From positions 1 through 64,000 of the forward strand of contig DUEZ01000078.1 in NCBI GenBank assembly GCA_011174825.1: DNA of 64,000 nt, written 5' to 3'. Both the position numbers and the translations under genes were made by a program. A model generated the notes under the pieces. The model had not been told where the DNA came from and searched no databases. It saw only the letters and a program-made list of their open reading frames with translations. Source of the stretch: Anaerolineae bacterium (GTDB lineage Bacteria; Chloroflexota; Anaerolineae; Anaerolineales; E44-bin32). This document shows positions 1 to 14,830 of this stretch, one piece after another (the first letter of the stretch is position 1; every line of letters begins with the position of its first letter).

Positions 1-3000
1 GGCGCCGCTGTTGAACTGGACCCAGGCTTCGATGGTGAGCCCATAGCCGGTAAGATCTAGCGTGATATCGCTCTGCTGTTCTTCGGAAAGAACCTGGTAG
101 AAGGTCGAGGGGCTGTCCTGATTGGCAAACTCGGTGGCGATCCAATCCAGCGGGCGCGCGGTTCCCGAAACCCGAACCTCGTCGATACTGCCATCAAATT
201 CCTGCTGTGTCGCGCCAGAGCCACTGCCAATGTAGAAATCAGAGGTTCCCAACACCGAATCGCCATCATAAGCTCCGCTGTTCCGCTGCGTTCCGTCAAC
301 ATAAATCCTCAGCAGGCTGTTGTCGACATCGGCGACTCCTACAACATAGTGCCACTCACCGTTATTGATTGAGCTCAAATCGGTCGTAATGGTCTGCGTG
401 TCATCGACGTAGAAAGACAGAGTCGTTTCATTCAGCTTACCAAGCCAATAATTCCGATCAGCGGGATCTGACCCCCACTTGTTAGCGATTATGCCGACAT
501 CGGTCTCGGTATCGGTTGTCTTCACCCAGGCTGAAACCGTGATATTTGTCCCCAACTGCATACTGGTATCGTGAGATACTTCGACGTGCCGCTCGTTCGT
601 ATCATCGAATGCCAGAGCATTGACGATTTGTCCTGTGGTCTGGCTGGGTTCCAGACCTACAGGCATTGCCGTTCCTTCGTTGGGATTGGAGGTGCTGTCT
701 AGGAATTGAGGTGCTGGATCCGTCGGGTCCTCATTCAGGTGCCAGACGCCCTTGTAGTCACCGCTGCCACCCTCGTCCCACGTACCACTCACATTCTGCT
801 GATCGGGGGCGGAAGCGTAGCCGTAATACATATAGATGGTCGTGTCTGCACTGTGATAGAGTTCTGAGACCTCAACCCAAGCGATGAGTTCACCGGTGGT
901 CGGATCGTAGGTTTCAATCTCATGATCCAGCTTGGTCCCCTCGTCGTTGGTGAAGAAGATGTCCGTCCCATCGTCCTTCCCGACATGACCACCGTTGCCG
1001 GTGAACTTCAGGTCGTTGTCGCTATCAGGATCAAAATCGATCAGAACCGGGAAGTTCGAGAAATCCGAGGTCCCACTGACCTCGCTGCCCTGGATCAGGA
1101 TCCGCTTGCGATAGGGCCAGTTAGAGTCCAACCATCCGGAGCTAGCCATGTCGATCAGGTCGTTGCCATCGAAGGTCTGCCCGTACCCGATCTGTCCCGT
1201 TCCCTGGGTGGGTGCGTAGTCGCTGTAGCCTTTACCGCCCGTCCCGTGGTTGTCGTTGGCGGTGCTGTCGTTGAATTCGTTCAGCGTGCCGTCACCGTTC
1301 TCGTCTAGATGCCATACGGCGATGTAATCGCTGTCCCAGGTGCCGCTGATGTTCCACTGATCGGCCGCACCGGAGTTTCCGTAATACATGTAGATATCGG
1401 TATCGGATGATCCAGAGAGATTCGTCACCTCGACCCACGCCACCAGCTCACCCGTACCCGAATTGAAGCTCTCGATCTCGTGGTCGAGTTTGGTGGTGCC
1501 GTCGTCGGTCGTGAAGAGGATGTCTCCGCCGTCACCCTGTGTGTTTCCGATCAGATCAGCATCGGTCATACCGACCAGAACCGGGAAGGCCGTGAAATCG
1601 GTCGCCACCATACTCGAGTCGAGGGTGAGCAGCTTGCGATAAGACCACCCGCTGTCGTACCAAGTTGCGGGTAGCTGGTCGAAGTACATATTGAGTGTGT
1701 AATCACCTGCAGCGATGCTGGCGTCATCGCCTCCGGTCGGATAAGTCAGTTCGGTGTACCAGTAGGCCTCATCTGCGGCGTCGTCAAAGAGGAGGGTATC
1801 CTCTGTGGAACCCTGATCGATATTCATATCCTGACCGGCAGGAGTAGCACCGTTGGTGGTTGTATCGCGCAGATAGAGGGTATCCGGTGCAGCGCTTACG
1901 ATCCCCACTTGATACGCCAGTATCGACAACGCGATGATCATAGATACTGTTACGCTGATGATCCGACCCGCAAGTCGGCGCTTCCTCGTCAGCAAACCGG
2001 TCACGAGCGGGATCAAACAAGCAAGCAGCAGGAAAACCAAACCCCATTCAACCATCACGATCGTTGGTGTAACCAGCCGCGAATTGTTGCTTACGCCATC
2101 CCAATAAATCGTCGCCCCAGACGCAGTTGTGACGGTCAACCTCAAGCGCTCACCACTCGAGAAAGTGTATCCGCTGGTCGACATCGTCAAGGTGAGGAGT
2201 TGTTTAGGACATTGAATCTGAATTTGCGTGTTGGTGCCTAGCTGCGTCCAATCCCCCGGTGATCCAGCATCCAGGGTGATGGTAAAGGAGGATCCTAGGA
2301 TAACGACCTCTCCCATCACGTACACCGTGCTGGTGCCACCGTTGATCTGCCAGTCCGCTGGGAAGGTATCAGAGTAGAAATATGTGGTCGTACCTGTCGC
2401 TGATAACTCACTCCCAGAAGGCTGTGTCTGGTACATCATGTACTGTTCCGGCGTGGTGTCATCATAGAGCCAGAAGGTGTTGGTGGTCTCTGAGACCTCA
2501 GCGCTTACTGGATAGGTCTGTGTCGCCAGGATCACCAACGCTGCCACGATGGACAAACCATACGAAGCCAAGCGAGTCGCTAACCGGCGTTTCCTCATGA
2601 ACAGATTCACGATCATGGGGATGAAGATCACGACTACTGCGAGGAAGAGTGTGATATCCGGAACCACCATGCTGGGCGTGTCCAGCGAGCTGGGGTCGGT
2701 TGCAGAGTCGTAGGCAAGGGTGAAGCTCCCGCCGCCGTTGACTGCTGTGGCGTCGATGAGAACCCGTACATGCCTCGGATCAGATGATGTGAAAGTCTGT
2801 TCGGAACCACTTCCGATCGAGAGCGCCAGTGGATCGGAGGTATTGGCGTCGATTCTCACACTAGAGGAGGTGACAATTTCTTGGGGATCACCGCCACTGG
2901 TGTTGGTATGGTAGACACTGACGATAACATCGACAAAGGGGGCGTCTACCTCGCCACCTAATCCCGTGGTGGGTTCAGGATCAACATAATCTCTTACATA

Positions 3001-6000
3001 AACCCAATCACTCTTTTGATCAGCGTAGTAGAAGTTGGTGTACACCTCACCCCAGTAGAACCAAAAGGACTCACCGTTATCGTAGGTGTTGGACCAAAGG
3101 ATCGGCGCCGTGACCTCGATCTCGGCTCCAGTGGCGTCGCTGATGCGAACATACCAATCCGTACCATCACTGATAAGCTCGTGGATGTAGTAGGTATCCA
3201 GGGAGAGGTTGCCCCAGAAGCCATTCCCGGTCTGCCACGCATCACCGTCCCAGTAGTTAGGGGTTACGGGATCACTGTAGTAGTAAACCTGTGCATCGGT
3301 ATCGATGCGTTGGAAATCGATGATCCGACGACGTGGGTTTTCGACAGTATTCAGCGCCACGGCATATTGGCTAGAGTCTTCGCCAATCCCGATCAGTTTC
3401 ACCTCGGGATTGCTCACCCCACCACCACTTACAACCTTGGTCTTGTGTACAATGGCAAATTGATTGTCGATCGGCAGCTCGGTCGTCTTGAGGATGATCC
3501 CCGCATCGGTGGTCTCGGTGGTGCCCAAGTCGATGAAAGCCTCCCCACTCGCCTCTGTGATGCTCGCCGTTCCTGCGGTCGAGGTGCTCAAATCGCTCGT
3601 CAGTGCCCCATCGTCGAAGTCATCGCCGACCATGAACACGTTCGCCCAATCGTCCGGGGGGCTTGAAGCGGATGAGTTGCCGTAGTAGAGATAGTAGTTG
3701 TTATCTGCGCTGGAGGCCGAGATCGGGTCTTCCAAGGCAAACCAGACCTGGGTCGAAGTATCGTCCCAAGATGAGAGTGGATCTAGCGCACGGTCAAGTT
3801 CGGTCCAGCCAGAACCTGTCCAATGCACCACACGCACGTCGTCGCCTGAGATTAGCGACTTTGTGTCGGTTACTAACGTCTCATGATCGAAGGTGATGTC
3901 GACGGAATATCCTGCATCCACCCCAGAGCTTGTAGTGGTGATCGTGATCTGCTGACGATAGAGATAATCCGTATCCCACCAGTCGCTCGGTAGCTGGTCA
4001 AAATACATATTGAGGGTGTAATCGCCAGCGGCGATGCTGGCTTCATCGCCTCCAGTGGGATAGGTGAGGTCCGTGTACCAATATGAGTCGTCATCCGTGC
4101 TGTCGAAGATCTTTGTAGCCGAGCCGCTGCCCTCGTTTATATCCATATACTTGCCCGAGGGAGAAATCGGCGCCGGTTCCTCGGAGCCAGGCGGTTTGTA
4201 GAACGTCGAAGGGGAAGACAGATTGTTGTATTCGGTTTGTATCCAATTCGCGGTTCGTGCCTCGGTCGAGATGCGGATCTCGTCGAGGTCGCCTTCGAAG
4301 TAGTTGCGCTGTCCAGAACTGTCTGTATACCACTGTGCGCCAATTAAGAGCGTGACCGGGAAGTTAAGAGCACCCGTGCTAACAACATCGTTGTCCACCT
4401 CGCCGCCGTCGTAGTAAAGTCGGGCTGTGCTACCATCTCGCTGCAATACGGCATAGTGCCAGTTGCCGTCTTCTGGGTCGGTAACGGCGATTGTGGCACT
4501 GTAGGAGCCTCCCCCGTCCGGTCGGATCCAGACGTCGTAGCTATCCGCCTCGCCGCTGGGAGCAACGTCGTCGCGGATTGCGAGCCGAATCTCCGAATCA
4601 TCGCCAGCACCGCGGTCCTCGATGCCCATGACGTCATCACTTCCGTTGACACCGTTGGGTCGGAACCAACCCGACCAGGTGAAGCTCGTGCTCGAGGCGT
4701 AGTTTGAGCTGAAATTTGTATCAATGTAATGGCTGGAACCGTTGAAGCTCTGGCCGTCTGCCGCCAGCCCGTCGCTGATGTCCGACGATCCGTTGTTGGT
4801 GGCGACGGCATGGTTACCGCTCGAGTCGGCGAAATTATCATGCAGATGGTAGACGGCGTCGAAGTTGTTCGACCAAGTACCGGGCGCATCTTGCTGATCT
4901 CCCGCCGAGGCGTTCCCGTAGTACATGTAGAACTCTGTATCCGATGAAGAGTAGATGTTAGAAAGCTCTACCCAAGCAACCAGCTCGCCAGTCGTATCGT
5001 CGAAGTACTCAATCTCGTGGCTTAGCTTGCTCGTCCCGTTGGAAGACGTAAACAAGATATCGTAGCCAGCGGTCGGAGCGTTCTGTGCTTTGGCAGCCAG
5101 ATCTGCATCGGAAGCCAGGCTGACCAGCACCGGGAAATTCGTTTGATCGGCAGGCACCTTGGTGTTATCGATCGTGAGCTTCTTGCGGTAGGACCAGCTG
5201 GTGTCGTACCAGGCTGGGCTTGAGCCGGTGTCCGAATCGTGTAGATAGAAAATATCAGGTGCGGCGCTGACGAAAATTACCTGTTGGGCTAATAATGTCA
5301 GCGCGAGGATGATCGAAACCACAACGCTGATAATGCGAAGGGCCATGCGCCGTTTCCTGGTCGCCAGGCCTGTGGCGATGGGGATCAAGATCACCACTGC
5401 GACGAGGAGGATCGTTACATCTAGAACTACTAAGCTGGGGGTTTCCAGATTGGTGGGATTTGAGGTCGAATCGTAGGCAAGGGTGAAGCTCTGATCATTA
5501 GCGTCGACGACCTCGATCTGTACCCTCAATCGTTGTGGGTCCGAAGAGGTGAAGGTCTGCTGCGCCCCGGAGCCGACGTTCAGTTGATAGGGATTGGACG
5601 TGCTGTTTTTGATTGAGGTGACGGAGGACTGGACGATGGTGGTCGCTCCGCCCCCGCCGGAAGCCGCATGGGAAACGGTGACCCTAATCTCGACACCCTC
5701 GGTCTGCTCCGAACCCAGGACCGTCGATAGATCATCGTTTGCCGCTTCACGTCCGTATACATAGAAATTACGGTCAGACCCGTCGGGCACAAAGAAGAAG
5801 TCCCATGTGCCGTCCTGGGCAACTCCATAGGCTTTGCAGTCGCTGCAACTGCTTCGGTATGTGGGGCTAGAGCTATCGAAATCCCAACGGAACCAATCCG
5901 TTGAAGCATTTCGTCCGGCTGGCGTCGTCGGAAGGATGGCGATGTAATATTGAGTACCAGATTTGACCTTGGGTTTCGCTGAACTCCAGGTCAGATCGTT

Positions 6001-9000
6001 CTGAGTGTAATTCGTGAAGGTGTTTGATGCGACCGCGTCACTCTTGCCGTTGGTGATCTCGTCCCCTTCTAAAGAATCCGTCGCATCGAAGATAAACCCT
6101 GCAACTTCGTCGGTTCCAGCACTATTTGCATTCTGATAAAAACTGAAGCGGGTGATCTTCCAATAGCGGGATGTGCCTGCGTTGAATTGCACACCCTGCG
6201 CGGCCCCCCACTCAGTTTGGTTGTAATCGATTGCTTCGGCGCTCTGACCATCACTATTGATGTAGGACTCAAGCTGCTGCTCTGAGGTTGTAAACGTCGA
6301 TGGGCTGGTGGTCTCACCAGAGTTACCATAATAGACATAATAGTTACTATCACTGGCGCTAGCGTCGATCGCATCTACAAGTCGGAACCAGGTCTCGGTG
6401 GAGGTGGTATTCCACCCAGCTTCCACCAGCTGCGTAATCTCATCCCAGCCCGAACCGTTCCAGTGAGCGATGCGCCAGTCATTGCCATCTGAGCGAAGCT
6501 GGCTATCGTTGATCAGCTGTTGGGTATTCGCCGTGAAAGCGGCGATGGTATTGGAGCCCAGTTGGATCGTGTCATTGTTGGTGACGGTGATCTTTTGACG
6601 ATACAGATAATTGCTGTCCCACCACGAGGTGCTGCTCGGCAACTGATCGAAGTACATGTTGAGGTTATAGGTTCCGGCATCGAGGATGGCATCTTCACCA
6701 CCGACGGGATAGGTAATGTCGGTGTACCAATAAGCATTCTGACCCGTGGTATCGAAGGCCAAGGTGTCCTCGCTGGTGCCTTGCGAGTTGTTCATATCTT
6801 CGCCGGCTGGCGTAGCGCCGTTGACGGTTGTATCTCTAAAGTAGAAAGCGTCCGGTGCAGCGCTTACAGGGACCACCTGTTGACCAAGCAAACCGATCGA
6901 AATGAGCAACGCGAGGACAATGGACACAAGCCAGGTCGCCATTTTCCTCTTTCGCGTTGCCAATGTAGTCAGGATAGGGATGAATACCACAACCAACATC
7001 AGGAGCAGTGTTACATCGGCGATCGTCAGGCTGGGGGTATCCAGTGAACTCGGATTGGCGGAAGAGTTGTACGCCAGGGTAAAACTTCCACCATTGTTGA
7101 CACTTTCAACCTCGATAAATACTCGCAAACGTCGGGGGTCCCCAGCGGTAAAGGTTTGTTCCGCTGCAGATCCGATGTTCAAAGCATAAGGAGAACTTGT
7201 ACTGCTGCTGATCCTGGTGCTTGAAGAGGTGACAATCGACTGTGGATCTGAACCGCTGGTTTGCGTTTTGTGGACACTGACCTTGATGTCCACCGATGGT
7301 GGTGTCTCCTCAGAACCCAACCCGGTCGTAGGCTCAGGATTCACCCAAAGCCTATCGAAGCAATCATCGAAATAGATCGTTTCTTCCCCCGTACCATCCG
7401 GTTTGTAAGCAAGGCCAACCACATTGTGGTCGATGGTCGCTGTACCTGTGTCGATGCCGGGTTCGTCGACCTTCTTCACTCCGTCCTGCCAAAGTTCTAC
7501 TTTCCCGTTGACATCGGAGATCAGCATTTTAATTTCAAGGCTGTGCCATTCACCCGTTGTCAGGGGAGTTAGACTGTAATATGGTTCGTCCTCGATGTAA
7601 GTCCAGATGTATGGATAAAGAGAGGTGCTGATGGAAAGTGTCGCAATCTTTGTCGTCCAGCCACCTGTGTAATACTGGACCACATCGATGGCCGAGCTGG
7701 CGTTGTAGTCGGTGGGGAGATAGATCCAAACCGTGGTGCTTAAACCTCCCTGCCCGGTGAAATTATTTTCAACCGCCGCCTCGGTACCGTCATCGACCCA
7801 AGCTTCGGCGGCGTTATCCCCGGTGTGAACGATGAAATCATCGACATTGATATAGTCACCGTCACCTTCGACGATCCCGCCCCAAGCGCTGAGATCTCCG
7901 CTTTCGAAACCATCGTAGAAGAAAAACACATATTCACTATCTTCGGGCGGCGAGGCCGCTGAGCCATTGCCGTAGTAGATATCGTAATCACTGTCCGATG
8001 AGGAGGCGGGGATCGCGGCTTGAGTTTGGAACCAGATCGTCGTTGTGCTGGTGTTCCACGCGGAACCGGGGTCTAGCACTCGCTCCAACTCATCCCAGTC
8101 TGAGCCGTTCCAGTAGGTGATCCGAATATCGTCACCAAACTCTTGAGACCTGCCCGCACTGACCATAGCAGCGTGATCGAAGGTTAATGAAACGCTGTAG
8201 CCACTCGGAATATCCGCAGATCCCGCCGTAATGGTTAACTCTTTTCGATAGCCATAAGAGCTGTCCCACCAGTCAGTCGGCAACTCTTCAAAGTACATAT
8301 TCAGCGTGTAATCCCCAGCGGCGATGCTGGCATCGTCACCACCGGTGGGATAAACCATCTCTGTATACCAGTAGGCTTCATCGTCGAGATCATCGAAGGT
8401 GAGCGTGATTTCGTTGGAGCCCTGCCCGCTGTTCATGTCCTGGCCAGCAGGAGTGGCTCCGTTGTTATTGGTATCCCTGAGGTAGAAAGAGTCCGGCGCC
8501 GCGCTTACCGGTATGACTTGACGCGCCAACAAGGTGAGAGATACCAGAAGTGAGATGATGACCGTGATGACCCAGACCGCCAATCTGCGCTTGCGCGTCA
8601 CAATGCTGGTCACCACGGGGATGAAAACCACTACCGCTAGTAGGAGCACGGTGACGCCAGGGATGGACAGTGCAGGCGTAATGAGTGCCGAGGGATTGGA
8701 GACGGAGTCGTAGGCCAGGGTGAAACTCCCCCCGCCGTTGACCTCCGTGACATCAATGTAAACACGCACACGTCGTGGATCAGCAGAGGTGAAAGTCTGT
8801 TCGACCCCACTTCCTATGGGAAGGAAATATGGATCGGAGGTATTGCCATTGATGGTGATCGTGGAGGAGGTGATGATCTCTTGAGGATCGGTCCCGTCAT
8901 CTTTCGTATGGTATACACTCACATCGATCTTGACATAGGGTGCGTTCTCTTCACCACTGAGCAACGTAGTAGGTTCCGGGTTGACGTAATCGCGCACATA

Positions 9001-12000
9001 AACCCAATCACTCTTCACATCAGCGTAATAGAAGTTGGTGTATACATCACCCCAGTAGAACCAGAAGGGATCACCGTTGTCCAATGTGTTTGCCCAACTG
9101 ACAGGGGTTGTCGTGGTTATTACGCTTCCGTTGGCGTCGCTAACCCTGAGGTACCAATCCGTTCCATAACTGATGAGTTCATGAATATAGTAGGTGTCAA
9201 GCGCGAGATTGCCCCAAGATCCCCACCCAGTCACCCAATTCGAGCCATCCCAGGAATAATCTTGCCCAACATTGTCCCAGCGTAAGAGCGACGCTAATGT
9301 ATCCACACGTTGGAAATCGATGATCCGCCGGCGAGGATTCTCTGTTGTGTTGAGTTCCACACCCGGCTGGGAAGGCCACTCTACAATGCCGAGGTTTTTA
9401 ACCTCAGGGTTGCTCACGCCACCGCCACTCACCACCTTGGTCTTGTGTTGGATGGCAAACTGGTTATCACTCGGCAGCGCGTTCGCTGTGACGATGATCC
9501 CTGCATCGGTGGTCTCATTGGTGCCCAGGTCGATAAAGGCTTCCCCACCGATCTCACTGATGGTGGCTGTGCCAGCCGATGAGATGTCGACGTCGTTTGT
9601 CAGCGCTCCATCGTCAAAATCATCCCCAAGGATGAAAACATTCGCCCACGATTCTGGGGGGCCTGTGGCTGATGAATTGCCATAGTAGAGATAATAGTTG
9701 TTATCTGAACTGGAGGCCGAGATCGAGTCCTCTAACGCAAACCAGATTTTGGTCGAAGCGTCGTTCCATGAAGAAAGCGGATCGAGCACGCGATCGATTT
9801 CAGTCCAGCCTGAACCATTCCAATGCAGGACACGCACGTCGTTGCCATTGGACAGGGATTTCAAACTGCTTACCAGGGATGTATGGTTGAAAGTGAAAGA
9901 AACGGAGTAGTCCTGCGCCACACCGGCGGCTCCAGTGGAAACCGTGATCTGCTGTCGGTACAGATAATCCGTGTCCCACCACGCGCCGGGTAATTGGTCG
10001 AAATACATGTTGAGCGTGTAATTGCCAGCCGAGATGCTGGCGTCGTCATTGCCCGTGGGATAAGTCAGGTCGGTATACCAATAGGCCTCATCTGCGATAT
10101 CGTCGAAGACCAATGTCGCCGCACCAGAACCCAAGGTGGTATTTATTGATTCTCCGGCAGGAGAGATGCTCGGCGTAACGGAACCCAGTGCGATCCATCC
10201 CACTCTACGTTGCGTTGAGTCCGCTTGGGTCCAATTGATCGTGAATCCATCGGCGTTCATGGAAACGAATTCGGCTTGCGCGTTAGAGGCCGGCGTACCA
10301 GCTGTGTAGCTGAGGATCGATCGACTGGCCGAGAAGCTCGTATCGGAAGGATAGGGACTGGAAGTGTTCTGAGCACCGATCCAGAATGAAGCTTCCTCAC
10401 TCGAACTCGTCGCGACACCGGCCACCATCTCGGCGTCTTGTTCGAACCCATCCACCGTCGCTTTATCGCCGCCATCGAAGAGAACCGCTGTGGGTTGGAA
10501 AGTCAAGCCGCTAACCGATTGATTACCCGTTGAAGTAGGTTGCGTCAGCATACCGCGATCGATGTTCATCCCCTCGAGCGCTAAATAGATGACCGTCACC
10601 TGTTCGTCGGGGAGACCGACCGCTTTGGTGAGCGAGAAACCATCGGCGTCCATTGATACAAGATCAAGCTCGTTCTCCGGCGTATTGGTGTCGTCAGCGA
10701 AGACCAACGCCCGGTTACTCATTAACCCACTAGAACCCGAATCCACGTCAGTCACATTGTTGCGCCACCGATGGGCGTCGCTATGGCGGTCCGAGGAGGA
10801 GAGCGCGATCCCAAAACCGTGGCCGCCGCGGGTTGTGGTCCCAAAACCGGTTGCCATTTCGATCCCTGCGAGCATCACGGCATCCGGTTGGAAGCCAATG
10901 CCTGTCTCCGAATAATTCATGCTGCTGAAAGGCCAGACGAATCCACCGACTTTCACATTCGTGAGGGTGTCCCCGCCAAGCGCCAGATAGGTAACGAGGC
11001 GAGAACCGCCAGAAGTTGTCCAATTGAGGGTGAAGCCATCGGCGTCGAAGGAACTCGTGCTTGCCTCAGCGAGCAGATTGCCGTTGTGGTCCACAAGTGT
11101 GATGCTGGCCGAGGTGACGATGCGATCTCTCGATTCGTTTGAGTCGCTTCCCCCGGCTGGCTCATCGTCCCATGCTGTCGCGATCGCGGCCTGATTGCTG
11201 CCGTCCGTCCAACCTCGACCGAAACGTGCGTAAGCGCCACTCCCTTCGCTGGTGCGGTCCGTGATCCAGAAGAGTACCGCTTTCGGCTCGAAACCTACGC
11301 CTGAAACGGACTGGCTACCGGTGCCCGCCAAGGCTGTAAACGTGCCCACTTTGGAATTCAACGGTTGCTCGCCTGCGTTCGCCGCGTGTAGGTAGAAAGC
11401 ATCCGGGGCTGCCGCAACGATGAGGATTCGAGAGGCGAGGATGACCAACAGGATGAGGCTGATCGTCAGGCTGAAGGCTACCCGGAAGCGAAGACCCAAT
11501 CGACCCGCAAGGTGCCTGAACCTGCGAGGGAATAGTTGCTTCAGCCTCTGAGGGAAGAGGCGCCTGAATCTCTCAGGGAAGAGGCGCTTGATACGTTCGA
11601 GCCACGGATCGAAACTCTCAATCGCGCTTTCGATGTAAGAGCCGAGGCGACCTGAAAAAGCAAGTGAACCGCCCTTTTTCTTTTCCGATGGTTTTGGTCG
11701 TAAGCGACGTAACCGCCGCCTCATGCCAAGTCGGCCTAGAACCTCAGTGATGACGCCGGTCTTCTGCGTACGATGCCATCCGCCCTCGTGCGGCTCAAAC
11801 AGGCCTTTCAACGCGGCGTACGCCTGGTAGGGGACGAGTAGATAAGTAAGGAGGACAAAAGATAACAAGCCGCGCCAGTTCCTGCGCACCCCACGCTCCA
11901 GGAACAGGCCGGTGACGTTCATCAAGATCAACGAAAAACCATTGACAAAAACCAACGACCAACCGAGTGACCTGGTCCAGAATGGCAAACGGGCTTTGAG

Positions 12001-13695
12001 GATGAAATCCGAAATCAGCCATGCTCCTGTGCCAAGCAGGAAGAAGGCCGCCTGTAGGTAGTAAGGCGCAAAATAAACCCACTCAAGTTTTTCTCGCAGG
12101 TTGATTTTTGTGGAACGCAACACCTCCATGAAATATTTCTTCACATTGAAGGTGTGTCCCTCGGCCCAGCGCATTCGTTGGCGAGTAAGCTGCTTGAAAC
12201 TGGCGACACATTCAGCTGGTGCTTGAATGAAGGGCGTATAGAGGACCTTGTATCCTGCTAGATACAGTCTGATCGTGAGCTCCCAGTCCTCAGTGATCGA
12301 TGTCTTCCATCCGATCTGCTTAAGCACGTCCGCCCGGATCATGAATACCGAGCCCGAGATCATCTTCATCGAGCCGAATAGCTCTTGCCCGGTACGTTCG
12401 ATCACATAGGAGCCGGAATACTCCGTTCGGATACCTCTGGTGATCCAGTTCTCGGAGGCGTTCAGCATGTGCCACTGGTAACCCTGGACCACCGCCACCT
12501 TGTCATCAGCCAGGCTAATGTGGGTGGCATCTTCGCGTATATGGTTCCCGTTGGACCCGTTGAGACCGTAAAAGTACGCCAAGAATTGGTGCAGGATGTC
12601 TGGAGGAGGGACGAAGTCGGCATCGAAGACGGCTATGAACTCTGTGCGCGGATCCATTCGATGGACCGCCACTTGGAGCGCCCCACCTTTGAACCCACTT
12701 CGATCAATGCGATGTGAGAGTTTAACCCGGGGATGAGATTCCCAACGCTCCTGCAGGATTTGAGTGGTCTCATCTGTTGAGTCATCGGCGACAATGATCT
12801 CGTAATTCTCGTAGTCCAGGGAGGTACATGCCGTCAGTAGCCGATCGACGACTTCGGTCTCGTTATACAGTGGTAGATGGATGCAGATGAACGGTTGCAG
12901 GTGATTTGGCAATCGACCGTTCCCACCATTGAACGCCTTGACCCCATTTAGACCTCGACCGTTCCTCTCGCCGTTACTCTTACCGTTCCTCTCGCCATTC
13001 CGTAACCCGTTCAGCCAACCGTTGAGTCTGCCGTTAAGTGCGCCATTAGCATGACCGTTATTATTAGCATTTCCGCTCGTTGCAAGGAGGATAAGAGCCA
13101 CACTCAGGTAATATTTCAAGCCATAGAGGAAGAAGAACAACCCAAATGCTAGCGCCGTCCAAACCAATGTCATCTTGACTGAGGAGATCAATGAAGCAAG
13201 GTAGAGGATGGCGGTTAGGATACCTATCCCTCGCCACAACCAGGGGTTCTCCCACATCTCCCCAAATACACGTCGGGGTTCCGGTTCAACGAGTGGTCGT
13301 AAACTACTAAGCGGATCTTGGATTGCCTTGACCAGTTCATTCAGATCGTCATCTTTGAGGAAGAAACGCTCCGCACCCGCTCGGATGGCATCGTGCTCCC
13401 ATCGTCCCTCAGCAGCGATGAAAATCACCCGGATTCGTGGTCGACTCGCTTTGATGCGCCTCGTCGCCTCCACCCCTGAGAGCGTAGGCATATTCTGATC
13501 CATCAAGACGATGTCCGGATTGCGGTGTTCGGCTAATTCAACCCCGCGCATGCCGTTCTCAGCTTCACCGACAACCTTGATGTTGCCGCTAGCTTCGAGG
13601 AAGATTCGAAGCTCACGCCGGAACGACGGATTGTCGTCGACGATTAGAACCCTGACTTGCCCGATGTTGGGACGCGTTTCTGAGGCGTCACTCAA
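1..13695 (-). CDS. Giant receiver-GT2-multi-DUF2341/LamG surface protein (C-terminus beyond window)
   Basis: One frame stays open from a TTG start at 13695 to the left edge (4565 codons, no stop). AGGAG lies 8 nt before the TTG. Order: receiver domain (about 5-125; D20/D21, D66, K114, with Ala at position 94 where Thr/Ser is usual); two membrane helices (about 140-200); Asn-Gly linker (208-262); family 2 glycosyltransferase (about 265-515) with a DAD motif, a TED motif and QRMRW near 507, the signature of processive enzymes; three membrane helices; basic tail (657-735); then a signal-peptide-like helix and six outside modules. Modules start near residues 765, 1733, 2280, 2812, 3734 and 3935. 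They contain about seven DUF2341-like domains (WWDTDYLYRQ type) and LamG/concanavalin-like folds. The glycosyltransferase probably makes or exports a polysaccharide and the modules are probable surface binding domains; both roles are inferred. The last module runs off the window. Confidence 0.85.
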   Translation of the reverse strand, partial: MSDASETRPNIGQVRVLIVDDNPSFRRELRIFLEASGNIKVVGEAENGMRGVELAEHRNPDIVLMDQNMPTLSGVEATRRIKASRPRIRVIFIAAEGRWEHDAIRAGAERFFLKDDDLNELVKAIQDPLSSLRPLVEPEPRRVFGEMWENPWLWRGIGILTAILYLASLISSVKMTLVWTALAFGLFFFLYGLKYYLSVALILLATSGNANNNGHANGALNGRLNGWLNGLRNGERNGKSNGERNGRGLNGVKAFNGGNGRLPNHLQPFICIHLPLYNETEVVDRLLTACTSLDYENYEIIVADDSTDETTQILQERWESHPRVKLSHRIDRSGFKGGALQVAVHRMDPRTEFIAVFDADFVPPPDILHQFLAYFYGLNGSNGNHIREDATHISLADDKVAVVQGYQWHMLNASENWITRGIRTEYSGSYVIERTGQELFGSMKMISGSVFMIRADVLKQIGWKTSITEDWELTIRLYLAGYKVLYTPFIQAPAECVASFKQLTRQRMRWAEGHTFNVKKYFMEVLRSTKINLREKLEWVYFAPYYLQAAFFLLGTGAWLISDFILKARLPFWTRSLGWSLVFVNGFSLILMNVTGLFLERGVRRNWRGLLSFVLLTYLLVPYQAYAALKGLFEPHEGGWHRTQKTGVITEVLGRLGMRRRLRRLRPKPSEKKKGGSLAFSGRLGSYIESAIESFDPWLERIKRLFPERFRRLFPQRLKQLFPRRFRHLAGRLGLRFRVAFSLTISLILLVILASRILIVAAAPDAFYLHAANAGEQPLNSKVGTFTALAGTGSQSVSGVGFEPKAVLFWITDRTSEGSGAYARFGRGWTDGSNQAAIATAWDDEPAGGSDSNESRDRIVTSASITLVDHNGNLLAEASTSSFDADGFTLNWTTSGGSRLVTYLALGGDTLTNVKVGGFVWPFSSMNYSETGIGFQPDAVMLAGIEMATGFGTTTRGGHGFGIALSSSDRHSDAHRWRNNVTDVDSGSSGLMSNRALVFADDTNTPENELDLVSMDADGFSLTKAVGLPDEQVTVIYLALEGMNIDRGMLTQPTSTGNQSVSGLTFQPTAVLFDGGDKATVDGFEQDAEMVAGVATSSSEEASFWIGAQNTSSPYPSDTSFSASRSILSYTAGTPASNAQAEFVSMNADGFTINWTQADSTQRRVGWIALGSVTPSISPAGESINTTLGSGAATLVFDDIADEAYWYTDLTYPTGNDDASISAGNYTLNMYFDQLPGAWWDTDYLYRQQITVSTGAAGVAQDYSVSFTFNHTSLVSSLKSLSNGNDVRVLHWNGSGWTEIDRVLDPLSSWNDASTKIWFALEDSISASSSDNNYYLYYGNSSATGPPESWANVFILGDDFDDGALTNDVDISSAGTATISEIGGEAFIDLGTNETTDAGIIVTANALPSDNQFAIQHKTKVVSGGGVSNPEVKNLGIVEWPSQPGVELNTTENPRRRIIDFQRVDTLASLLRWDNVGQDYSWDGSNWVTGWGSWGNLALDTYYIHELISYGTDWYLRVSDANGSVITTTTPVSWANTLDNGDPFWFYWGDVYTNFYYADVKSDWVYVRDYVNPEPTTLLSGEENAPYVKIDVSVYHTKDDGTDPQEIITSSTITINGNTSDPYFLPIGSGVEQTFTSADPRRVRVYIDVTEVNGGGSFTLAYDSVSNPSALITPALSIPGVTVLLLAVVVFIPVVTSIVTRKRRLAVWVITVIISLLVSLTLLARQVIPVSAAPDSFYLRDTNNNGATPAGQDMNSGQGSNEITLTFDDLDDEAYWYTEMVYPTGGDDASIAAGDYTLNMYFEELPTDWWDSSYGYRKELTITAGSADIPSGYSVSLTFDHAAMVSAGRSQEFGDDIRITYWNGSDWDELERVLDPGSAWNTSTTTIWFQTQAAIPASSSDSDYDIYYGNGSAASPPEDSEYVFFFYDGFESGDLSAWGGIVEGDGDYINVDDFIVHTGDNAAEAWVDDGTEAAVENNFTGQGGLSTTVWIYLPTDYNASSAIDVVQYYTGGWTTKIATLSISTSLYPYIWTYIEDEPYYSLTPLTTGEWHSLEIKMLISDVNGKVELWQDGVKKVDEPGIDTGTATIDHNVVGLAYKPDGTGEETIYFDDCFDRLWVNPEPTTGLGSEETPPSVDIKVSVHKTQTSGSDPQSIVTSSSTRISSSTSSPYALNIGSAAEQTFTAGDPRRLRVFIEVESVNNGGSFTLAYNSSANPSSLDTPSLTIADVTLLLMLVVVFIPILTTLATRKRKMATWLVSIVLALLISIGLLGQQVVPVSAAPDAFYFRDTTVNGATPAGEDMNNSQGTSEDTLAFDTTGQNAYWYTDITYPVGGEDAILDAGTYNLNMYFDQLPSSTSWWDSNYLYRQKITVTNNDTIQLGSNTIAAFTANTQQLINDSQLRSDGNDWRIAHWNGSGWDEITQLVEAGWNTTSTETWFRLVDAIDASASDSNYYVYYGNSGETTSPSTFTTSEQQLESYINSDGQSAEAIDYNQTEWGAAQGVQFNAGTSRYWKITRFSFYQNANSAGTDEVAGFIFDATDSLEGDEITNGKSDAVASNTFTNYTQNDLTWSSAKPKVKSGTQYYIAILPTTPAGRNASTDWFRWDFDSSSPTYRSSCSDCKAYGVAQDGTWDFFFVPDGSDRNFYVYGREAANDDLSTVLGSEQTEGVEIRVTVSHAASGGGGATTIVQSSVTSIKNSTSNPYQLNVGSGAQQTFTSSDPQRLRVQIEVVDANDQSFTLAYDSTSNPTNLETPSLVVLDVTILLVAVVILIPIATGLATRKRRMALRIISVVVSIILALTLLAQQVIFVSAAPDIFYLHDSDTGSSPAWYDTSWSYRKKLTIDNTKVPADQTNFPVLVSLASDADLAAKAQNAPTAGYDILFTSSNGTSKLSHEIEYFDDTTGELVAWVELSNIYSSSDTEFYMYYGNASAGDQQDAPGTWSNNFDAVYHLHDNFADSSGNHAVATNNGSSDISDGLAADGQSFNGSSHYIDTNFSSNYASSTSFTWSGWFRPNGVNGSDDVMGIEDRGAGDDSEIRLAIRDDVAPSGEADSYDVWIRPDGGGSYSATIAVTDPEDGNWHYAVLQRDGSTARLYYDGGEVDNDVVSTGALNFPVTLLIGAQWYTDSSGQRNYFEGDLDEIRISTEARTANWIQTEYNNLSSPSTFYKPPGSEEPAPISPSGKYMDINEGSGSATKIFDSTDDDSYWYTDLTYPTGGDEASIAAGDYTLNMYFDQLPSDWWDTDYLYRQQITITTTSSGVDAGYSVDITFDHETLVTDTKSLISGDDVRVVHWTGSGWTELDRALDPLSSWDDTSTQVWFALEDPISASSADNNYYLYYGNSSASSPPDDWANVFMVGDDFDDGALTSDLSTSTAGTASITEASGEAFIDLGTTETTDAGIILKTTELPIDNQFAIVHKTKVVSGGGVSNPEVKLIGIGEDSSQYAVALNTVENPRRRIIDFQRIDTDAQVYYYSDPVTPNYWDGDAWQTGNGFWGNLSLDTYYIHELISDGTDWYVRISDATGAEIEVTAPILWSNTYDNGESFWFYWGEVYTNFYYADQKSDWVYVRDYVDPEPTTGLGGEVDAPFVDVIVSVYHTNTSGGDPQEIVTSSSVRIDANTSDPLALSIGSGSEQTFTSSDPRHVRVLIDATAVNGGGSFTLAYDSATDPSSLDTPSMVVPDITLFLAVVVIFIPMIVNLFMRKRRLATRLASYGLSIVAALVILATQTYPVSAEVSETTNTFWLYDDTTPEQYMMYQTQPSGSELSATGTTTYFYSDTFPADWQINGGTSTVYVMGEVVILGSSFTITLDAGSPGDWTQLGTNTQIQIQCPKQLLTLTMSTSGYTFSSGERLRLTVTTASGATIYWDGVSNNSRLVTPTIVMVEWGLVFLLLACLIPLVTGLLTRKRRLAGRIISVTVSMIIALSILAYQVGIVSAAPDTLYLRDTTTNGATPAGQDMNIDQGSTEDTLLFDDAADEAYWYTELTYPTGGDDASIAAGDYTLNMYFDQLPATWYDSGWSYRKLLTLDSSMVATDFTAFPVLVGMTDADLIGNTQGDGGDILFTTDDGTTKLDHEIESFNSGTGELVAWVEVTNLSGSSDTDIYMYYGNSGAADQWNISGTWDSDYIAVWHLDENGDGTLNEFNDSTANDNHGTGGKGYSDYAPTQGTGQIGYGQTFDGNDLIDMASSGWLDSNWPYRKRILIQGSEVSGTSDFSNFPVLIDFDPDSDNDLKFTGNGGHVGKDDGTDIFFTNDEGTKLDHEIETYDPTTGELIAWVEVSELYHSADTTIYMYYGYASAPDQQNVSGTWDEGGSGDYKGVWHLNEDPTDPAPQFLDSTSNPNEGTAMPVGLEPSQTTGQIVNALAFDDTNERHVEVSHDTSMQLGTNITVSAWVKTTDTETDVGIIANKWGSDPADRNYWLGKLNETTLSFYVDDTQTITTDLSSINNGEWHYVVGVADVDNSLLRIYVDGTQRNSGAYDGDSVLGTSDFYIGSGSGATQQEFDGSIDEVRVSGTARPLDWIATEFANQDSPSTFYQVLSEEQQSDITLDLTGYGLTIEAWVQFNSGA
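1887..2085 (-). other. Junction 5: anchor helix, RKRR loop, signal-like helix, VSA/APD
   Basis: Residues about 3871-3936. TPTIVMVEWGLVF helix, T-R-K-R-R-L-A loop, hydrophobic helix, V-S-A-A-P-D followed by TLYLRD. The module after it carries two DUF2341-like domains; its first LamG-like stretch seems cut short by the second DUF2341. Confidence 0.7.
2490..2690 (-). other. Junction 4: anchor helix, RKRR loop, signal-like helix, VSA/EVS
   Basis: Residues about 3669-3736. TPSMVVPDITLFL helix, M-R-K-R-R-L-A loop, hydrophobic helix, then V-S-A-E-V-S. This is the only junction without APD after the VxA. It opens the smallest module (about 200 residues, no DUF2341 seen). Confidence 0.7.
2590..4110 (-). 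repeat. Intragenic direct repeat, copy 1
   Basis: About 1.5 kb that is strongly similar, in the same orientation and reading frame, to 8590-10110. It covers a DUF2341 domain, a concanavalin-like domain and the C-terminal anchor of module 4. The spacing is 6000 nt: for example 3001 and 9001 both open with the same ten bases, and 4021 and 10021 still line up. Confidence 0.8.
5259..5455 (-). other. Junction 3: anchor helix, RKRR loop, signal-like helix, VSA/APD
   Basis: Residues about 2747-2813. TPSLVVLDVTILL helix, T-R-K-R-R-M-A loop, hydrophobic helix, V-S-A-A-P-D followed by IFYLHD. Confidence 0.7.
6849..7043 (-). other. Junction 2: anchor helix, RKRK loop, signal-like helix, VSA/APD
   Basis: Residues about 2218-2283. 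Same plan as junction 1: TPSLTIADVTLLL helix, T-R-K-R-K-M-A loop, hydrophobic helix, V-S-A-A-P-D followed by AFYFRD. Confidence 0.7.
8491..8690 (-). other. Junction 1: anchor helix, RKRR loop, signal-like helix, VSA/APD
   Basis: Residues about 1669-1735. The end of module 1 (TPALSIPG, then a Leu/Val-rich helix) runs into T-R-K-R-R-L-A, a second hydrophobic helix and V-S-A-A-P-D. VSA fits the -3/-1 rule for signal peptidase I. Frame checked codon by codon at 8520-8491. Confidence 0.7.
8590..10110 (-). repeat. Intragenic direct repeat, copy 2
   Basis: Partner of 2590-4110, forming the second half of module 1. Similarity at the DNA level points to segmental duplication inside the gene rather than independent recruitment of the same domains. 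Confidence 0.8.
11401..11480 (-). other. Junction 0: signal-peptide-like helix after the glycosyltransferase
   Basis: Residues about 738-766: a basic segment, a hydrophobic run rich in Leu/Ile, then V-A-A before A-P-D. This is the shape of a signal peptide (n-, h- and c-region) buried in the chain, and it moves the protein from the cytoplasmic glycosyltransferase part to the first outside module. Confidence 0.65.
11500..11600 (-). repeat. Tandem RLFP-type amphipathic repeats in the giant protein
   Basis: Residues about 698-732 contain three consecutive copies of a basic motif of the form RLFPxR, spaced 9-10 residues apart, with near-identical DNA of about 30 nt per unit. They lie in the cytoplasmic tail just before the first signal-peptide-like helix. 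Alternating Arg and Leu/Phe suggests an amphipathic, membrane-surface helix. Confidence 0.65.
12910..13075 (-). repeat. Asn-Gly tetrapeptide linker in the giant protein
   Basis: Residues about 208-262 lie between the second membrane helix and the glycosyltransferase. Asn-Gly recurs every four residues about eight times (pattern xxNG: ANG, LNG, LNG, LNG, RNG, RNG, SNG, RNG). This suggests a flexible linker grown by repeat slippage. The DNA shows the matching periodic CCGTT/GCCATT pattern. Confidence 0.75.
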
Positions 13696-14167: not shown

Positions 14168-14830
14168 TCAGACATTTACTAAGCCATGTCGAATAGCGTA
14201 AATGATCGCTTGAGAGCGCCCTTCTACTTGTAGCTTGCCGAAGATGTTGGTGAGGTGGGTTTTCACGGTCTTCTCTGAGATGACCAATTCCCGAGCGATC
14301 TCCTCGTTTCTCAATCCTCGAGCTAAGGCTTGAAGAACCTCTGTTTCCCTAGGTGTTAACTGACCATGGGCAGACCGATGTTCCTCATGACGGTGTGCAA
14401 ATTCATCCAATAATCGACGCAACAAAGAGGGCGTGATGAGAGACTCGCCCTTGACTAACCGACGGATGGCATCAAGCAACTCCTCATGAGAAGCGTCTTT
14501 TAGCAGAAAGCCGTGAGCACCGGCCTCCACGGCATTGATTAAGATCTCTTCATCCCCAAATCCGGTCAGGATAAGAATGGCCGTTTCCGGATTTTGTTCC
14601 CGTATCTTTCGGGTTGCTTCAACACCATCCATCCCTTCCATACGCACATCGAGGACAACGAGATCTGGATGCTGCTCATCCGTCAGCTTAGCGGCTTCCT
14701 CACCATCAACCGCCTCACCAACGACCGTGACATCTGGCTCCATCTCCAACATGACGCGTAATGCCTGACGCACAACTGCATGATCTTCGGCGATCACGAT
14801 CCGAATGGGAGCGTATTCTGTTTCGCTCAT
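14168..14830 (-). CDS. NarL/FixJ-family response regulator
   Basis: 220 residues, the usual length. The N-terminal receiver domain (about 8-125) has the acidic pair E15/D16, phosphoacceptor D61 (in VVLDVRM), switch T89 and K111. The C-terminal LuxR-type helix-turn-helix (about 155-215) carries LTPRETEVLQ and the recognition region SEKTVKTHLTNI. It should bind DNA as a dimer when phosphorylated. It is preceded by 14 nt and a stand-alone phosphoacceptor domain gene (14845-15063), probably in one transcript from the promoter at 15090. The terminator at 14086 closes the unit. The kinase that feeds it is not evident next door. The giant gene directly downstream is a possible target by position only. 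Confidence 0.92.
   Translation of the reverse strand: MSETEYAPIRIVIAEDHAVVRQALRVMLEMEPDVTVVGEAVDGEEAAKLTDEQHPDLVVLDVRMEGMDGVEATRKIREQNPETAILILTGFGDEEILINAVEAGAHGFLLKDASHEELLDAIRRLVKGESLITPSLLRRLLDEFAHRHEEHRSAHGQLTPRETEVLQALARGLRNEEIARELVISEKTVKTHLTNIFGKLQVEGRSQAIIYAIRHGLVNV

Follow-up and report, generated by a model that had tools for sequence, protein, structure and literature searches.

A receiver-glycosyltransferase gene of an Anaerolineae bacterium fused to a chain of predicted exosortase substrates

Whether a very long bacterial reading frame yields one protein or several is the question raised by the first gene in the 64,000-nucleotide stretch of Anaerolineae bacterium DNA studied here (contig DUEZ01000078.1, positions 1 to 64,000; hereafter the window). 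On the minus strand, positions 1..13695 hold 4565 codons without a stop, beginning with TTG and encoding a receiver domain, a family 2 glycosyltransferase (GT2) and a chain of putative outside modules. The window edge at which this frame is still open is base 1 of the contig (C79; 99,439 bases), so that the gene is cut there and its length is a minimum. An initial annotation had described a single open frame of this extent, continuous across its junctions and combining a receiver, a GT2 and at least six outside modules. Our translation agrees, the GC content at third positions stays between 0.56 and 0.76 across the full frame (250-codon blocks), and a Pfam scan recovers Response_reg, GT2, DUF2341 and Laminin_G_3, with six modules counted. 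The fusion is real and conserved. We put at roughly 0.55 the probability that the gene joins a receiver-GT2 synthase to exosortase substrates of its own and is expanded into a polyprotein, with cuts predicted from its sequence to be made by signal peptidase and then by exosortase. Both this reading and the architecture of the joints between modules go beyond the initial annotation.

Results

Joints between the modules

Five of the six modules are bounded on both sides and the sixth is cut at the contig end. The five internal joints, which were read by hydropathy and site pattern and identified in a joint scan, follow a common plan: two helices with RKRR or RKRK between them, then VSA and in most cases APD. 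The first half resembles an exosortase-substrate tail and the second half a signal peptide. All lie on the minus strand. Joint 1 (8500..8670) consists of a tail helix, RKRR and a second helix, with the predicted cut between VSA and APD; joints 2 (6859..7029), 3 (5263..5445) and 5 (1891..2061) are built alike, and joint 4 (2500..2670) ends with VSA before EVS. A further signal-peptide-like helix stands behind the GT2 (11410..11478) and ends with VAA before APD. Because the joints combine an exosortase-type tail with a signal-peptide-like helix and an alanine site, the chain is probably not kept as one lasting polypeptide; the single frame claimed in the initial annotation thus stands, and the single polypeptide drawn from it probably does not.

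The argument for a cut site rests on one fixed alanine column in the joint alignment. In an unbiased alignment of joints found by a strict scan, alanine occupies the position before the predicted cut (-1) in 26 of 26 joints from 12 chains; this column is among the few that are fixed across the joints, and the -2 position varies. When the strict scan was combined with a loose scan of 143 proteins with tails of at least 150 residues (21 flagged, 18 retained), 32 joints in 18 chain proteins were obtained, all with alanine at -1, several of the rows being close orthologues so that the 32 are not independent cases. Position -2 in these joints is S, G, T, H, E, D, M or Q and position -3 is V, A, L or S; the joint of the G014b chain reads VTA. 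The three remaining flags of the loose scan (P0061, P0076 and P0090) were discarded by eye as false matches to β-strands.

Conservation within the genus and family

We searched 27 genomes of the family for the receiver-GT2 part and found eight matches at an E value of 1e-60 or better, among them all five genomes of the genus. The same order, a receiver-GT2 part with a fused chain, is present in the other four genus genomes searched (G001, G002, G003 and G004). In G002, another Anaerolineaceae genome, a collinear frame of 3539 codons runs into a gap of 100 N, and its receiver-GT2 part is 91% identical to that of the window. Ka/Ks between the two, estimated from this one genome pair by the crude Nei-Gojobori method, was 0.084 over 3489 aligned codons, 0.028 for the GT2, 0.072 for three joints pooled and 0.03-0.13 in each of eleven segments. 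The chain is under purifying selection, and the low Ka/Ks speaks against decay. With the collinear G002 copy and these ratios, an assembly join or frameshift was discarded as an explanation of the frame.

Within the window's own draft genome (G000; 102 contigs, 3.85 Mb, 92% complete and 6% contaminated), a joint-plus-module query matched on C79 only, and the remainder of the gene was not found elsewhere in that assembly. The same genome holds a second giant frame on contig C59 (L050:7331-17215, minus strand), which runs for 3294 codons and reaches the contig end without a stop; it matches DUF2341 three times and, by hydropathy, has no membrane helix. At L045:5664-12908 (G014) an in-frame stop separates the GT2 from the module chain; a close relative, P0064, is unbroken there.

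Exosortase genes beside the GT2

The G004 chain is followed to its end, where it reads VPENALIL...KRKKLKR; the stop lies about 17 residues further on and an exosortase gene starts two bases after it. The product scores 31.6 bits against the exosortase/archaeosortase family TIGR04178 (cut-off 23) and holds WNCVGWQ, NLLR and HDY. A chain end in G002 (VPEGALLF...KRRK) stands, in a gap-free stretch, directly before an enzyme 86% identical to the G004 exosortase, both lying far from the chain start in the scaffold. Among the 27 family genomes, exosortases were found in G002, G004, G014 and G015. A scan of one genome per species yielded 57 loci, 50 of them with a GT2 match, and a profile built from five of the exosortase proteins matched in 28 of these 50 (one, L063, is a cut fragment scoring 35 bits) and in 24 of the 34 loci whose GT2 frame closes with a stop. 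The exosortase gene lies at most 500 bases from the GT2 or overlaps it in 23 of the 28 loci, and a rough text pattern found the Cys, Arg and His motifs in 27 of 33 unique exosortase matches. G000 encodes proteins of the signal peptidase family (PF10502; best match 163.6 bits). No CTERM model matched the window chain at an E value of up to 1 in an NCBIfam scan.

Two loci show other arrangements. In G015 (L057:3156-3737) a frame with a receiver and helices stops before any GT2 and stands directly before an exosortase gene. A 735-codon frame at L078:4340-6547 has its exosortase match at the far end and shares DNA with the GT2 frame, which is read in a different phase; the true start of the exosortase gene is therefore probably much further in.

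A widespread fusion with a rarer tandem form

Beyond the family, a protein search returned 1283 relatives, of which 120 were used; together with the loci above these make 144 unique GT2 proteins. The 57 loci of the species scan lie in genomes labeled as Chloroflexi/Anaerolineae, Dehalococcoid-type bacteria, candidate phyla (Curtiss-, Woese-, Davies- and Nealsonbacteria), Aigarchaeota/Terraquivivens and one Terriglobia bin. A C-terminal helix with basic residues is present in 101 of the 144, 95 of these carrying [VIL][PD]E near the end; 14 others have tails shorter than 150 residues, and in the remaining 29 the tail is long but lacks such an end, several of these proteins being cut by contig ends. 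By these tail counts, a GT2 with one secreted-type module and an exosortase-type tail is the common form, and one-module relatives carry both the alanine site behind the GT2 and the exosortase tail at the C terminus. The tandem chain is a special form (18 of 143 proteins). The initial annotation had found the combination of parts unfamiliar, and it does not survive as a one-off, since fusions of a GT2, a module and a tail occur widely close to an exosortase gene and tandem chains recur.

Two chains, P0012 and P0017, close with an ordinary tail. P0017 is a distant, complete chain of three near-copies that are 64-74% identical, with VPEG in every tail and an alanine site at every joint. A joint profile matched 3 of 298 genomes of the class (the window's own and two others), and one of these matches, L122, is a fusion with a single module, overlapped by an exosortase gene. 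In a GT2-domain tree (144 rows, quick IQ-TREE run), ten of 11 labelled chains fall in one starred group of 28 rows and P0017 lies far off in a group of 57 rows, a single clade of chains being rejected (p-AU 2.3e-61); since the chain labels are incomplete (six more chains were found later) and the P0017 branch is long, we use only the separateness of P0017. At L073 and L074 the end of one tail-bearing gene is overlapped by another such gene, an arrangement that looks like a half-way state toward a chain. As part of the polyprotein reading with in-frame gain and loss of modules, we tentatively suggest, at a little below even odds, that tandem chains evolved repeatedly from a synthase-substrate fusion that is widespread and common to bacteria and archaea.

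Receiver, glycosyltransferase and upstream gene

The receiver domain (residues 16-126; 13318..13650, minus strand, as are all features below) matches PF00072 Response_reg with 81.4 bits. The acidic pair, MDQNMP and the lysine are kept, and the Thr/Ser position reads alanine in VIFIAAE; we take these to be the usual acidic pair, the site of the phospho-Asp, the conserved Lys and the Thr/Ser switch. The phospho-switch named in the initial annotation is therefore a putative one, its phosphorylation-site residues being there and alanine standing at the usual Thr/Ser place. Membrane helices (about residues 150-206; 13078..13248, by hydropathy) and an NG-rich linker (window about 12900-13080) follow ahead of the GT2; in relatives this linker extends to long GNGNGN stretches, which also occur within a loop inside the GT2.

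The GT2 core occupies residues 272-512 (12160..12882) by Pfam, with matches to PF13641 (residues 275-512, 69.2 bits), PF00535 and PF13632. Its C-terminal part and membrane helices, placed by hydropathy and conservation, extend over about residues 512-660 (11716..12162). The translation contains DAD, TED and QRMRW, which we take to be the DAD, TED and QxxRW motifs of processive GT2 enzymes. The assignment as a processive type, from which polymer synthesis is predicted, is supported by these sequence features. Directly upstream of the frame lies a gene for a LuxR-type response regulator (14168..14830; Response_reg and GerE), and a 220-codon frame, matched by place and size, stands there in G001, G002, G003 and one G014 locus. 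The LuxR-type protein is a possible regulator of the synthase.

Modules of the chain

Over the whole frame Pfam places DUF2341 in six stretches and Laminin_G_3 in two. Module 1 (8500..11409; 970 residues including the hairpin) scores 22.3 bits for DUF2341 when scanned alone, slightly below the cut-off of 23.4. Module 2 (6859..8499; 547 residues) contains DUF2341 and a stretch that passes Pfam Polysacc_lyase (32.3 bits, cut-off 29.9), and module 3 (5263..6858; 532 residues) has no Pfam family above cut-off. Two DUF2341 stretches and Laminin_G_3 are found in module 4 (2500..5262; 921 residues). The shortest, module 5 (1891..2499; 203 residues), is a jelly roll by structure model. Module 6 (1..1890), cut by the contig end, contains DUF2341 twice and Laminin_G_3. 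In the alignment the ends are conserved and the middle is variable, a pattern that raises the idea that DUF2341 and LamG may form an insert between two jelly-roll halves. The predicted structure of the whole of module 2 had a pLDDT of 54.9 and was not used.

Discussion

We propose the following course of events for the polyprotein. The receiver and GT2 would form a membrane-bound, perhaps phospho-regulated polysaccharide synthase. Translation would continue into the chain, where each joint would insert as a hairpin, with helix 1 running from outside to inside, RKRR remaining inside and helix 2 running from inside to outside, so that every module would be placed outside. Signal peptidase I would cut after VSA and release at least six surface proteins, one copy of each for every copy of the synthase, and the freed modules would each be held by their own tail helix. 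The steps of which we are least sure are the last: exosortase would take off those tails that have a VPE-type motif, the final one at least, and transfer the modules concerned to an acceptor in the envelope, perhaps the synthase's own polymer. The DUF2341, LamG and jelly-roll modules would then hold the polymer at the cell surface. On this basis the gene would specify a non-viral, cellular membrane polyprotein, a regulated synthase with six or more surface proteins parted by tail-plus-signal-peptide cassettes that both enzymes cut, a formulation to which we give slightly less than an even chance.

Several observations weigh against this proposal. The motif search itself demands alanine at -1, and shuffled tails often hold the site string: 25 of 25 unique tails have it against a mean of 20.5 after shuffling, with 7 of 2000 shuffles as high as observed, a weak test because such strings are common in these tails. 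The window tails read IPGVT, IADVT, VLDVT and VPDIT, without VPE, and the fifth reads MVEWG. With internal motifs this degenerate, exosortase may not act within the chain; the internal cuts may all fall to signal peptidase, with just the final one left to exosortase. No exosortase was found at 22 of the 50 GT2 loci, and at ten of these the GT2 frame closes with a stop. G000, an assembly 92% complete and cut at the chain gene, yielded none either, nor does it hold a close copy of the epimerase that follows the exosortase in relatives (best match 53%); with contig C79 breaking off within the chain, the simplest assumption places both genes in the assembly gap. Chloroflexota mostly lack an outer membrane. 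The PEP-CTERM bacteria described in PMC1569441 all have one, according to that paper.

The mostly degenerate internal tail motifs would also suit a giant multi-pass protein that is never cut, its modules forming tethered outer loops that catch the emerging polymer and its joints being plain anchors. There is no stop or consistent break between the parts, and helix pairs with RKRR between them could serve as anchors. A plain anchor, however, needs no alanine at one place, and that column is fixed in 26 of 26 joints next to a varying -2; moreover, the one-module relatives share the site behind the GT2 and the terminal tail, as exosortase substrates do. We regard the uncut protein as unlikely, while giving it more weight than the remaining alternatives. 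One of these, which we consider quite improbable, is that several proteins arise from internal translation starts at the basic clusters, as in an operon whose stops were lost, each start yielding the signal peptide of the next module. In the window all five joints have a possible start codon at the basic cluster, which counts for internal starts and against our proposal and keeps this alternative in play for the window. Within 11 codons around the cluster, ATG, GTG or TTG occurs in 10 of 18 joints from seven chains (ATG in 6), as compared with 0.35 (ATG 0.11) in 2800 random control windows, and the overlapping tail-bearing genes at L073 and L074 are also in its favor. No start codon is found, however, in the other 8 of the 18, including all those tested in G004, G013 and G014b, and each internal start would read through the remaining modules; as there are no stops between modules, cutting would be needed even then.

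It is very improbable that the chain is an artifact of assembly, a frameshift or a decaying gene. Contig ends truncate the chains of the window, G001, G003 and G013, N gaps interrupt that of G002, and in G014b an in-frame stop separates the GT2 from its modules. Against this, the same order recurs in other assemblies, the Ka/Ks reported above is low in all eleven segments, P0064, which is closely related to G014b, has no break at the stop position, and the P0012 and P0017 chains end with an ordinary tail.

Polyprotein layouts are, to our knowledge, known mainly from viruses, and we know of no settled answer as to what accepts exosortase substrates or why exosortases keep company with polysaccharide synthases. 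A likely synthase and a likely substrate in one gene, in bacteria and archaea, makes the exosortase-synthase link directly testable. If the chain is diced, bacteria use a virus-like layout in which the synthase and the surface proteins that go with it are made in a fixed ratio; if the reading is true, the tail-plus-signal-peptide cassette permits whole modules to be gained or lost in frame. We found no description of a GT2-exosortase-substrate fusion or of a bacterial tail-bearing polyprotein in the open-licence literature searched.

The viral membrane polyproteins that host signal peptidase cuts are alike in having internal hairpins with signal-peptide sites between outside modules; they differ in that the present gene is cellular and bacterial, with a synthase at its head and exosortase-type tails, and no homology is claimed. 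Among NCBIfam models, the GT2 part of relatives scores highest with the poly-N-acetylglucosamine synthase PgaC/IcaA (TIGR03937), and identity with it was rejected at 75-98 bits against a cut-off of 422. The XrtP-associated glycosyltransferase NF053846 is likewise a GT2 that travels with an exosortase. That model, however, describes a 440-residue protein without fused modules, and G014a, G004, P0012 and P0017 score 42-48 bits against its cut-off of 520, so that identity was again rejected. Five neighboring enzymes scanned against TIGR04178 pass its cut-off of 23 (30.1 to 46.9 bits), and all five fall below the cut-offs of the named exosortase types (XrtX, XrtG, ArtC, XrtH and others).

PEP-CTERM/exosortase (EpsH) protein sorting is among the closest known systems. 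In PMC1569441 and PMC12188702, exosortase substrates are described with a signal peptide and a C-terminal tail and are tied to exopolysaccharide loci, and exosortases are linked to holding polysaccharide at the surface, ties that fit a fusion with a synthase. That system resembles the predicted layout here in its signal peptide, its outside region and its tail of motif, helix and basic residues, and, as in relatives of the window gene, an exosortase gene lies nearby, together with glycosyltransferases and two-component regulators in the neighborhood. It differs in its motif, which here is VPE followed by N, G, W or Y, or a degenerate form, rather than PEP, and in its layout: here the substrate is fused to the GT2, and in the window copies of it follow one another head to tail, which places tails and signal peptides inside the chain.
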